In this document: positions 29,143-64,000 of the stretch, one piece after another
How positions within the stretch are numbered: position 1 is the stretch's first letter
Layout: the number at the start of each line of letters is the position of its first letter
NCBI GenBank assembly: GCA_007126035.1
Contig: SLCC01000059.1
Span: forward strand, 62,001-126,000
Origin: Gemmatimonadota bacterium
GTDB lineage: Bacteria; Gemmatimonadota; Gemmatimonadetes; Longimicrobiales; RSA9
Length of the DNA: 64,000 nt
Direction: 5' to 3'
Program-made: the position numbers and the translations under genes
The notes under the pieces: generated by a model
What the model was told of the DNA's origin: nothing
Seen by the model: only the letters and a program-made list of their open reading frames with translations
Database searches by the model: none

Positions 29143-29246
29143 GTCCGTTCATGCGGGAGAGGCGGGAAGGTCGCATCACCAAGATAGCACAGCCGCACCC
29201 CCGGTGCGAGCCTTGCCTTCGGCACCACGGGAAGTCGCCGCTGACG

Positions 29247-29475
29247 ACCGCCCCGCCACTACCCGGCCGCCGGTTGCCGGGCTTCGGTGGGCTGCCGGGC
29301 TTCGGTGGGCTGCCGGGCTTCGGCGGGTTGGCGGGCTGCGGACAGTGCCGGGCGCTCGAACTCGAACTCCGAGCTCCGAGCTCCGAGCTCCGACCGCCCC
29401 GCCACTACCCGGCCGCCGGTTGCCGGGCTTCGGCGGGCTGGCGGGCTGCGGACAGTGCCGGGCGCTCGAACTCGA
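29247..29475. repeat. Local direct duplication with embedded tandem repeats
   Basis: A unit beginning GACCGCCCCGCCACTACCC and ending near GCGCTCGAACTCGA occurs at about 29247-29354 and again at 29391-29473. The first copy carries three tandem 18-bp GCCGGGCTTCGGTGGGCT-type units where the second has one. Between them is a 7-bp tandem CCGAGCT repeated three times. This looks like slippage and unequal duplication in non-coding DNA. Confidence 0.75.
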
Positions 29476-29667: not shown

Positions 29668-29790
29668 TGACCGCTCCGCTTCCTCCGACCTCTCCGAGCC
29701 CATCGTGTCACGCTGTTGGAATGCTGGGCTCACCCCGGGGCATGAGATTAGCCGGATCGGCCGAACCCGCCGGAGTCGCCTGCCAGGGCC
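29668..29790 (+). repeat. Conserved leader element, copy 1 (upstream of the E1 gene)
   Basis: Aligned by hand to 56845-56720 on the minus strand, roughly four of five positions are identical, including an uninterrupted TGTCACGCTGTTGGAATG and AGCCGGATCGGCCG. It ends 106 nt before the E1 start codon. CTCCG near its 5' end can pair with CGGAG near its 3' end, closing a possible RNA fold. It is the same orientation relative to the downstream gene as copy 2. Confidence 0.65.
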
Positions 29791-29810
29791 TCTCCGGCGG
29801 CATTCAGAAA

Positions 29811-29868
29811 AGGAGGGAACTCAACGTTGGAACGGTAGCGGCCCGGGACCGGTCCGTTTTATCTTTTT
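29811..29868 (+). promoter_or_regulatory. Possible attenuator leader of the E1 gene
   Basis: AGGAGGG at 29811 is followed 10 nt later by the minimal frame TTG-GAA-CGG-TAG (29827-29838). Next comes a short hairpin around GGACCGGTCC (29846-29855) and then TTTTATCTTTTT (29857-29868), 29 nt before the E1 ATG. The hairpin plus T-run resembles an intrinsic terminator, though the stem is short. Confidence 0.35.
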
Positions 29869-29896: not shown

Positions 29897-32071
29897 ATGG
29901 CCGCAAGGGAAACCCGGAAGACAAGCGCCAGGACCGGCGCCTCCCGCACGAAATCACGCAAGTCGGGGACGCAGGCGAGGGCCGGGCTGGAACCGGCGGC
30001 CATGATCCGCTTGTACCGGACGATGGTGGCCGCCCGCCGGACCGACGACCGCGAGATCCAGCTCAAGCGCCAGAACAAGATCTTCTTCCAGATCTCCGGC
30101 GCCGGTCACGAGGGCATCCAGGTGGCCGTCGCGCATCATCTGCGGCCCGGCCGGGACTGGTCCTACCTGTACTACCGTGACCGTGCCCTGAGCCAGGGCC
30201 TGGGCATGACGCCTTACGAGCACCTGCTCCAGGCGGTGGGCGCCGAGAGCGATCCCGCCAGCGGCGGGCGCCAGATGCCGTCGCACTGGGGCCATCGGGA
30301 GCTTCGGATCGTCAGCACGTCGTCACCTACGGGGACCCAGTACCTCCAGGCGGTAGGTACCGCGGAGGGTGCGTGGCGGGCGTCCCTGCTGGAGGAGTTG
30401 CGGGAGCGGATCGAGTCGTTCGAGGACGACGAGGTCGTCCTCTGCACCACGGGCGAAGGCCAGACCTCCGAGGGCGAGTTCTGGGAGGCGCTGAACACCG
30501 CTTCGAATTTGAAGCTGCCGGTGGTCTTCCTGGTCGAGGACAACGGCTACGCCATTTCTGTCCCGGTTGAGGTGAACACGGCTGGCGGCAAGATCAGCAA
30601 TCTGGTCGGGAACTTCCCTGACCTGTACATAGAGGAGGTGGACGGCACCGACGTACCGACGAGCCTGGCGGCGGCGGAGCGGGCCATCGACCATTGCCGG
30701 CAGCGCAAGGGCCCGGCCCTGCTCCATGCCCACGTGGTGCGGCCCTACTCCCATTCCATGTCCGACGACGAGCGGGCGTACCGCACCGCGGAGGAACGTG
30801 AGGCGGAGGCCCGCCGTGACCCGCTGGCCCGGTTCCGCGCCCACCTGGAGGAGCAGGGGCTGGCCACCGCCGAGGAGCTGGACGCCCTGGAGGGGGAGGT
30901 GCTGGCCGAGGTCCAGGAGGCGGCGGACCTGGCCCTGGAGCAGCCCCAGCCCTCGCCGGACACGGCCATGAGGTTCCTCTACTCCGAGGAGGTGGACCCC
31001 ACCTCGTCGGACTTCGATACGGAGGACTCGCCCCGGTTCGAGGGCTCGGAGACCACCATGGTGGACCTCCTGAACTCGTGTCTACGGGACGAGATGGCGC
31101 GGGACCCCAGGATGGTGATCTTCGGCCAGGACGTGGCCGATGCCAGCCGGGAGGAGGTCCTGGAGGAGTGCAAGGGCAAGGGCGGCGTCTTCAAGGTCAC
31201 CTGGGGGCTACAGCAGAAGTTCGGCGGGCTGCGCGTCTTCAACTCGCCCCTGGCGGAGGCCAACATCGTGGGCCGCGCCATCGGGATGGCGCTGCGAGGG
31301 CTGAAGCCGGTGGTGGAGATCCAGTTCTTCGACTATATCTGGCCCGCCTTCATGCAGCTCAGGAACGAGTTGGGCACAATGCGCTACCGGAGCGCCGGCT
31401 CCTGGAAGGCGCCGGTGGTGGTCCGCGTCACCTACGGCGGGTACCTGAAGGGCGGCGGCATCTACCACAGCCAGACGGGCGAGACGCTCTTCACCCACTC
31501 CCCCGGCCTGAGGGTGGTCTTGCCTTCCACGGCGTTGGACGCCGCCGGGCTGCTGCGGACGGCCATCCGCTCGGACGACCCGGTGATCTTTCTGGAGCAC
31601 AAGCACCTCTATCGCCAGGTCTACAACAAGAGCCAGTATCCTGGCCCCGACTTCATGATCCCCCTGGGCAAGGCCCGGGTGGTGAAGGAGGGCACGGACC
31701 TGACGGTGGTGACCTGCGGGGCCGTGGTGAAGCGCTCCCTGGATGCGGCACGGATCGCTGAGGAGCAGGACGGTCTGAGCGTGGAGGTCATCGACCTCCG
31801 CTCCCTGAGCCCCCTGGACATGGAGACCATAGCCCGGTCGGTCAAGAAGACGAACCGGGTGGTGATCGCCCACGAGGACTCTCTCAGCTGGGGCATCGGG
31901 AGCGAGATCAGCGCCCGCATCGCCAGCGATCTCTTCGAGTGGCTGGACGCTCCCGTGAAACGTGTCGCCAGCCTGGACACCTGGGTGGCGTATGCACCGC
32001 AGCTCGAGGCGGTCATACTCCCCGACGCCGACCGGGTCCTGGCCGCCGTGCGGGAGGTGGCCAGCTACTGA
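29897..32071 (+). CDS. 2-oxoacid dehydrogenase E1, fused alpha and beta subunits
   Basis: About 724 residues from ATG 29897 (AGGAAG site); a much longer upstream frame covers only repeat DNA. Residues of about 35-350 are the thiamine-diphosphate-binding alpha subunit ([65 protein letters not shown]). From about 390 the transketolase-like beta subunit follows ([59 protein letters not shown]). The features fit branched-chain 2-oxoacid or pyruvate dehydrogenase E1. No E2 or E3 gene is nearby, so the partner complex is encoded elsewhere. The first ~35 residues are a basic, disordered extension. Confidence 0.9.
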
Positions 32072-55247: not shown

Positions 55248-56618
55248 TCAACGAGGGATGGGCAGCCCGGGGAACCCGCCCCCCGCACCGCCGCCGGGCC
55301 CACCGCCCATCATCCCGCCCAGCCCCATCTTCCGCATCTGCTTCATCATCTTCTGCATCTGCTGGAACTGCTTCATGAGCTGGTTCACCTCCTGGACGCT
55401 GCGACCCGAGCCCCGGGCGATACGGGCACGGCGCGAGCCGTTCAGGATCTGGGGCTTCGCCCGCTCCTGCGGTGTCATGGACAACACGATTGCTTCGATA
55501 TGCTTCAGACGCTTCGGATCCACCTTGGCGTTCTTGAGCATCTTCTTGTCCATCCCGGGGATCATCCCCAGGAGCCCCTCCAGGGGTCCCAGCTTCTGCA
55601 TCTGACGGAGGGCGCCCAGGAAGTCCTGGAGGTCGAACTTCCCCTCCTCGGCCACCCGTTTCTGCAACCGCTCCGCCTCGTCCACATCGAAGGCCTGCTG
55701 GGCCCGCTCGACCAGACCCACCACGTCACCACGCTGGAGGATCCGGTCCGCCATCCGCTGCGGATCGAACGCGTCCAGCGCGTCAACCCGTTCACCCACG
55801 CCCACGAACTTTATGGGGACGCCGGTCATCCCCTTGATGGACAGCGCAGCGCCACCGCGGGCATCACCGTCGAGCTTGGTCAGCACCACGCCGGTCAGGC
55901 CCAGGGCCTCGTGGAAACCCTCCGAGATCCGGACCGCCTCCTGCCCGGTCATTGCGTCCGCCACCAGCAGCACTTCCGTCGGCTCCACCGCCGACTTCAC
56001 TCGCCGCAGCTCGTCCATCAATTGCTCGTCGATCTGGAGCCGGCCCGCAGAGTCCAGGATCAGAGCACGATGACGATCGGCCCGCGCCTGCTCCAGCGCC
56101 CGCTCCGCCAGCCGCGCCACATCCCGCTCCCGGCGGTCGGAAAAGACCGGCACGCCCACCTGGCCGCCCAGCGTCTCCAACTGGTCGATGGCCGCCGGGC
56201 GGTACACGTCCAGCGCCGCCAGCAGAGGCTTCTTCCCCTCCCGCCCCAGCCGACGCGCCAGCTTCGCCGCCGTCGTCGTCTTACCCGAACCCTGCAAGCC
56301 CACCAGCAGCACCACCGTCGGCCCCGCGGGCGCCGTGACCAGCCCCTGACGATCCTGGCCCAACAGCTCCACCAGCTCGTCGTGGACGATCTTCACCACC
56401 TGCTCGCCCGGCCGTACCGACTTCAACACCTGCTCGCCCACGGCACGCTCCCGGACACGGTCCAGGAAATCGCGGGCGAGTTGATAATTCACGTCCGCCT
56501 CGAGCAGGGCACGACGGATCTCGCGCAGCCCATCGTCGATCATGGACTCCGTCAGCAGACCCCGCTGCTTGAAGCGGCCTAGTACGCCGTCCAGCTTTTC
56601 CGAAAGCTCGTCGAACAT
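55248..56618 (-). CDS. ffh: Signal recognition particle protein Ffh
   Basis: 456 residues from ATG 56618 (MFDELSEKLDGVLGRF). NG domain GTPase: GLQGSGKTTTAAKLA (G1), DVYRPAAIDQL, LILDSAGRLQID (a variant of DTAGR, with Ser for Thr) and TKLDGDARGGAALS. The C-terminal M domain has the methionine-rich groove (MQKLGPLEGLLGMIPGM, QQMQKMMKQMRKMG) that binds signal peptides and 4.5S RNA. Starts the classic ffh-rpsP-rimM-trmD-rplS-rnhB series. Its leader carries copy 2 of the conserved element. Confidence 0.96.
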   Translation of the reverse strand: MFDELSEKLDGVLGRFKQRGLLTESMIDDGLREIRRALLEADVNYQLARDFLDRVRERAVGEQVLKSVRPGEQVVKIVHDELVELLGQDRQGLVTAPAGPTVVLLVGLQGSGKTTTAAKLARRLGREGKKPLLAALDVYRPAAIDQLETLGGQVGVPVFSDRRERDVARLAERALEQARADRHRALILDSAGRLQIDEQLMDELRRVKSAVEPTEVLLVADAMTGQEAVRISEGFHEALGLTGVVLTKLDGDARGGAALSIKGMTGVPIKFVGVGERVDALDAFDPQRMADRILQRGDVVGLVERAQQAFDVDEAERLQKRVAEEGKFDLQDFLGALRQMQKLGPLEGLLGMIPGMDKKMLKNAKVDPKRLKHIEAIVLSMTPQERAKPQILNGSRRARIARGSGRSVQEVNQLMKQFQQMQKMMKQMRKMGLGGMMGGGPGGGAGGGFPGLPIPR

Positions 56619-56657: not shown

Positions 56658-56691
56658 TTGAGCCGCCAACCGGTAACCAAAGAGCCTGTAA

Positions 56692-56725
56692 AGGTATCTT
56701 CAGTTCGCGGATCTCTCAAGGCCCA
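56692..56725 (-). promoter_or_regulatory. Possible ffh promoter
   Basis: On the minus strand TTGAGA, a 17-nt spacer and TACCTT lie directly after the conserved leader element and about 75 nt before the ffh ATG. The -35 matches 5 of 6; the -10 is weak. If this is the promoter, the conserved element would be upstream DNA rather than RNA. Confidence 0.3.
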
Positions 56726-56845
56726 TGGCCGGCGACTCCGCTGGGTCCGGCCGATCCGGCTATTCGCCCGCCCCGGGGCGACGCAAACATTCCAACAGCG
56801 TGACACACGGTGGTCTCGGACGGGTCGGGGGAAGCGGAGTGGGCA
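56720..56845 (-). repeat. Conserved leader element, copy 2 (upstream of ffh)
   Basis: Minus-strand partner of 29668-29790. Shared blocks include CTCCGCTTC near the 5' end, TGTCACGCTGTTGGAATG, CCCCGGGGC, AGCCGGATCGGCCG and CGGAGTCGCC. Here ACTCCGC and GCGGAGT are fully complementary and enclose most of the element, and CGCCCCGGGGCG is a perfect palindrome. It ends 101 nt before the ffh ATG. The rest of the 56619-57020 gap shows no gene. Confidence 0.65.
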
Positions 56846-63318: not shown

Positions 63319-63360
63319 CTAATCAGGCACCATTGGATCCGCCCTCCATACTACCACCCC

Positions 63361-63569
63361 TGCGAGCCGCCAGGCGAGCCCCCTGCGGCCGTCAGGCCGC
63401 CCTCCTGCGAGCCGACAGGCTCGCCCTCCTGCGAGCCCACCAGGCGAGCCCTCTGCGGCCGTCAGGCCGCCCTCCTGCGAGCCCACCAGGCGAGCCCTCT
63501 GCGGCCGTCAGGCCGCCCTCCTGCGAGCCGACAGGCTCGCCCCCCTGCGAGCCGACAGGCTCGCCCTAC
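63361..63569. repeat. Array of nine tandem short palindromic units
   Basis: Nine units of 22-24 bp, each starting TGCG: types GCGAGCC-GACA-GGCTCGC (units at 63406, 63522, 63546), GCGGCC-GTCA-GGCCGC (63384, 63454, 63500) and GCGAGCCCACCAGGCGAGC or similar (63361, 63430, 63476). Types one and two are perfect hairpins. The array begins at the dapH stop codon and ends 43 bp before mgtC. Units abut with no spacers. Confidence 0.85.
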
Positions 63570-64000
63570 TCGTTCAACCTCCGCAACTCCTTCAACAGCC
63601 CCGTCTTGTCTTTCGTCCTCGCGTCCACCGCCTTGATCGTACGGGCAGGCTGTCCGGCAGCCACGGTCATGGGCGGGACGTCCCTGGTGACCACGGCCCC
63701 GGCGGCCACGACGGAGCCCTTTCCGACCCGTACGCCCTCCAGGATCACGGCGTTGGCGCCGATGAGGACCTCGTCCTCGATCACCACCGGCTCCGCACTG
63801 GGCGGCTCCAGTACGCCCGCCAGGACGGCGCCTGCTCCGATGTGGCAATCCCGCCCCACCAGTGCCCGGGCGCCGATCACGCAATTCATGTCCAGCATGG
63901 TCCCGTCGCCCACCACGGCGCCTATGTTCACCACGGCGCCCATCATGCCGATCACATGTTCGCCCACCTCGGCGCCCTCGCGGATGATGCAGCCCGGCTC
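63566..64000 (-). CDS. dapH: Tetrahydrodipicolinate N-acetyltransferase, N-terminus beyond the window
   Basis: 144 residues visible; the frame is open to the window edge. A left-handed beta-helix of hexapeptide repeats ([94 protein letters not shown]) follows DapH nearly residue for residue, including EPPSAxPVVIED. It acetylates tetrahydrodipicolinate in the acetylase branch of lysine/diaminopimelate synthesis. The stop codon TAG lies inside the hairpin array. Confidence 0.9.

Follow-up and report, generated by a model that had tools for sequence, protein, structure and literature searches.

A dispersed repeat in register with predicted promoters is a candidate upstream activating sequence in a Gemmatimonadota genome

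Results

Two copies of one element precede unrelated genes

The window, the whole 64,000-nucleotide stretch of DNA that was analysed, carries two copies of an element, one upstream of a gene encoding a fused alpha/beta 2-oxo-acid dehydrogenase E1 and the other upstream of ffh. Both belong to a subfamily that we call S1. The features at the two loci are as follows.

29668-29822, + strand: S1 copy at E1, including the last module GCATTCAGAAAAGGAGGGAACTC (29800-29822); from blastn, profile matches and module alignment
29836-29865, + strand: predicted E1 promoter, with a weak -35 TAGCGG (29836-29841), a -10 TATCTT (29860-29865) and a spacer of 17-18; from the family register
29897-32071, + strand: E1 gene, ATG in frame; Pfam E1_dh, Transket_pyr and Transketolase_C on 30002-32071
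55248-56618, - strand: ffh (SRP54); Pfam SRP54, SRP_SPB and SRP54_N
56691-56719, - strand: predicted ffh promoter TTGAGA-N17-TACCTT; top score upstream of ffh, of a type that recurs in relatives
56720-56845, - strand: S1 copy at ffh, which lacks the last module and stops directly at the -35; from blastn, profile matches and promoter comparison

An initial annotation had put the identity of the two copies at about four fifths, with an unbroken shared stretch. blastn aligned 29668-29791 (+) with 56845-56719 (-) over 127 columns at 81.9% identity (E about 1e-29), and the unbroken TGTCACGCTGTTGGAATG is present in both. The arrangement described there was also confirmed: both copies are oriented towards the downstream gene, with 106 nt from 29790 to the E1 ATG at 29897 and 101 nt from 56720 to the ffh ATG at 56618. 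The short hairpin and T-run said to precede each start codon did not prove general. E1 has no terminator-like site and ffh has one weak 5-bp stem, and a terminator was therefore rejected. The T-rich stretch at E1 coincides with TATCTT, the -10-like hexamer expected from the family register; taken alone, the E1 promoter has a score that is not significant.

Two other repeats were seen in the window. Upstream of the E1 element, 29245-29475 is a GC-rich repeat of the CCGGTTGCCGGGCTTCGGCGGGCTGGCGGGC type in two diverged copies, and stretches resembling it trail several copies of subfamilies S2 and S3 elsewhere in the genome. Close to the window end, 63357-63570 is a tandem duplication of about 95 bp (92% identity).

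The element belongs to a dispersed repeat family

The genome of the window (G000, a draft of 3.88 Mb in 218 contigs, assigned to Gemmatimonadota from its nearest ffh relatives) gave 44-48 blastn matches to the element, and a sequence-only model made from 17 copies gave 71 matches at E <=1, about 46 of them at <1e-3. These many scattered intergenic copies bear out one of the readings offered in the initial annotation, that of a dispersed intergenic repeat. Several subfamilies, assigned by eye, have a common 5' half of CTCCG units at a 9-bp period followed by GTGTCACGCTGTT-GAA. In S1 the 5' half continues into GTCGCCCCGGGGCAGGAGAATAGCCGGATCGGCCGAACC, GGAGTCGCCGGCCAGGGTCGCTCCGGCCGC and ATGAAGAAATGGGGAAACTCC to give an element of about 150 bp, and some S1 copies retain the later modules only. 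The 3' halves of S2-S4 (our own names) differ and run into GGAGCTC-type tandem repeats, often as head-to-head inverted pairs. A viral, plasmid or phage origin of the element was considered and dropped, as no match was found.

Related subfamilies also occur head to head, as pairs with 35-150 bp between the two members, at L017 1203-1434, L021 1388-1573, L020 1271-1559 and L049 1499-1760. The outer ends of these pairs have GACA-CCTCTCGGAG-TCGGAG in common, and each pair is possibly a compound MITE-like unit.

S1 copies face the genes that they precede

Each of the 22 best matches (E <=1.4e-11) points at the gene that follows it, also where that gene is tRNA-Leu, and convergent intergenic regions hold none of them. 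Many of the regions examined are divergent, and there orientation carries no information. Where the flanking genes are codirectional, copies with a complete 3' end point downstream by 9:1, and those with an incomplete one, which include S2-S4, take either orientation.

Genes downstream of S1 were identified with ARAGORN, Rfam and Pfam, except rpmH, which lies before rnpA and was spotted by eye. Those of translation and RNA metabolism are tRNA-Leu, tmRNA, rpmH-rnpA (RNase P protein), rpsU (S21), prfB (PCRF/RF-1), yhbY and ffh; by plain count, translation-related targets make up about 7 of 23 S1 copies. Further targets are ATPase_gene1 (atpI-like), a DksA/TraR zinc finger protein, csp (cold-shock protein), E1, M13 and M14 peptidases, MatE, a class V aminotransferase, a LysM/DUF5715 protein and saccharopine dehydrogenase, and there are others besides. 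The peptidase, MATE transporter and lipoprotein targets have no obvious link to growth. At the prfB copy (L180, upstream of 1862) the programmed-frameshift sequence GGAGGTTATCTTTGAC is apparently kept, as judged by eye.

S1 ends in register with predicted promoters

Downstream of S1 lies a predicted sigma-70-type promoter, the -35 of which usually starts 13-15 nt after the element and the spacer of which is mostly 17. The mean promoter score over the 23 S1 places examined peaked at one offset with 7.3 of 12 matches, the maximum of 400 random-window sets being 4.87; an earlier set of 17 copies gave a mean score of 7.7 (maximum of 500 shuffles, 5.5). In both statistics the E1 and ffh values are among the weak ones, and ffh was scored with TTACCG-N17-GATACC, a site since dropped (see below). 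The same scoring gave no peak for S2-S4. Some S1-linked promoters, that of E1 included, are weak by consensus, and no convincing promoter was found at the M14-type copy (C198:16384). The tRNA-Leu and tmRNA genes begin just downstream of the predicted -10.

Mean pairwise identity is 0.85 in the last five bases of S1, falls to 0.41 in the five that follow and is about 0.28 further on, and the TTG-C and -10 signals come after this drop. Both the stretch between S1 and the -35 and the 17-nt spacer show no more than background identity, so copying of the element did not extend to the promoters. The initial annotation had also offered a shared upstream activating sequence, and that suggestion is borne out by the placement of S1, the copies of which keep one orientation and one register to the predicted promoters that they closely precede.

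Clear copies occur in only two of the genera searched

Only G000 and G009, which belongs to another genus of the same family, have clear copies (2 of 12 family genomes). A scan of the phylum found copies in 4 of 395 genomes, two of the four being marginal. All seven G009 matches point towards the start of a gene, with TTGAC-like and -10-like hexamers coming next in most of them. In the two G009 copies that keep the last module, the distance to the -35 is shorter, about 5-6 nt.

The ffh promoter recurs in relatives that lack the element

The best-scoring promoter upstream of ffh, TTGAGA-N17-TACCTT (56719-56691), directly abuts the element. The family register had pointed to TTACCG-N17-GATACC, which was dropped because relatives favour the former. 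A TTGAG-N17 type is the best ffh site in G010, G005 and G004, ranks second or can be made out by eye in G001, G006 and G007, and is less clear in G011 and G003; clear copies of the element are absent from all eight genomes. In G000 a gap of 402 nt separates ffh from its upstream gene; in G010, G007 and G004 this gap ranges from 105 to 177 nt. Since these relatives have the promoter without the element, and a shorter gap, the ffh element was most likely a later addition beside an older promoter.

In other genera of the family (L243-L248) different periodic or inverted repeats occupy the slot upstream of ffh; the G005 repeat there reads CCACGGAGAGC ... GCTCTCTGTGGTG.

Discussion

We consider S1, one subfamily of a lineage-specific dispersed repeat, to be regulatory DNA that most likely serves as a portable upstream activating sequence, and put the probability of this reading at about 0.6. 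What speaks for a function is the register and orientation of the copies, their difference from S2-S4, the nature of the genes behind them and the reappearance of the layout in a second genus. From the placement of S1, whose modules would stop about 50 bp short of the start site, we infer that one or more proteins bind these modules. Protein so bound would help RNA polymerase at the adjacent -35 and -10, and the outcome would be raised or coordinated expression of genes for stable RNAs, translation and other growth functions. A more tentative proposal concerns the origin of the arrangement: a dispersed repeat may have spread a ready-made activating module of about 150 bp before existing, unrelated promoters, including some of stable-RNA and translation genes, in fixed register to the -35, and thereby rewired a growth regulon in this lineage. 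Against activation stand the lack of the element in most family genomes, the targets without an obvious link to growth, the weak promoters and the shorter gap of the two G009 copies.

The initial annotation had called the element a leader in its title and had suggested one RNA fold, closed by pairing of CTCCG with CGGAG. Orientation towards the gene would fit a structured cis-regulatory RNA, and the few complementary bases are indeed present in the two window copies. The closed fold, however, was rejected: across 17 copies 70% of the cells of this helix pair, compared with 72% in shuffles, with no double change. Nor did the 17 copies contain any compensatory changes (the RNAalifold covariation term was +0.17, that is, none), and a search of Rfam matched no family at gathering or relaxed thresholds. 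Moreover, the element lies upstream of the predicted -35, with a predicted promoter between it and the tRNA, tmRNA and mRNAs, and would thus fall outside the transcripts. The absence of covariation together with a site upstream of tRNA and tmRNA promoters makes a leader RNA very unlikely.

The main rival of the activating sequence is a mobile or duplicating repeat without any regulatory role, the insertion of which is targeted to, or tolerated only, just upstream of promoters. S2-S4 copies lie scattered with no register to promoters and are often arranged as inverted pairs, the ffh copy was apparently added beside an older promoter, and other repeats fill the equivalent slot in other family genomes, all of which would suit such insertion. 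Divergence along the element is also nearly uniform, which is expected of copied repeats and so gives no proof of selection; heterogeneity of column rates is mild (reached by 5 of 1000 simulations) and for that reason was not used as such proof. Tolerance, however, leaves unexplained why about 20 copies share one orientation and usually have their -35 at a distance of 13-15 nt, and targeting would require a mechanism that reads promoter direction. We therefore regard functionless insertion as rather unlikely. Less probable still is that S1 serves as a repressor or silencer platform, or as a boundary against read-through into the promoter. A DNA-bound regulator beside a promoter would fit these roles equally well, and many of the intergenic regions lie between divergent genes, but the element stops before the -35 and does not overlap the promoter, and the genes served (tRNA, tmRNA and ribosomal proteins) are expected to be strongly expressed.

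Compared as an activating sequence of the Fis type or a similar one, S1 resembles the system of PMC8301835 in its fixed geometry to the -35 (the ffh copy abuts its -35) and in lying immediately before promoters, those of stable-RNA and growth genes among them. It differs in being a long, nearly continuous conserved block of about 150 bp common to unrelated promoters, and in that many of its targets are not stable RNAs. Dispersed, non-coding, intergenic repeats of about 100-200 bp in tens of copies are also seen among small mobile repeats with regulatory effects, such as Correia repeats and MITE-like sequences (PMC2229807) and pneumococcal BOX and RUP (PMC3049150). Unlike these, S1 has no promoter of its own, always points towards a gene and keeps its register to the -35. 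The free orientation and register expected of a MITE are seen in S2-S4, not in S1, and single S1 copies have no terminal inverted repeats that we could see, although related subfamilies form inverted pairs.

UP elements are contacted by the alpha-CTD of RNA polymerase upstream of the -35. S1 shares that position, and its last module is its least GC-rich part; however, S1 greatly exceeds UP elements in length, is on the whole GC-rich and usually leaves 13-15 bp between its end and the -35. Promoter-carrying repeats are already known. A promoterless repeat in register before some 20 unrelated promoters would, if our reading is correct, be a case of a bacterial regulon rewired by copying one enhancer-like module. 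The S1 register also gives a set of promoter predictions for Gemmatimonadota, a phylum for which our literature search found no start-site study and nothing on repeats.

A 16S rRNA gene was not found in the draft assembly of G000. At 54280 of contig C134 (L018 1501-1811), a remnant of the element is followed by two promoters of the TTGAC type and then by GTTGATTGAAAACATGG, which resembles a leader, close to the contig end; the remnant perhaps precedes the leader of an unassembled rRNA operon.
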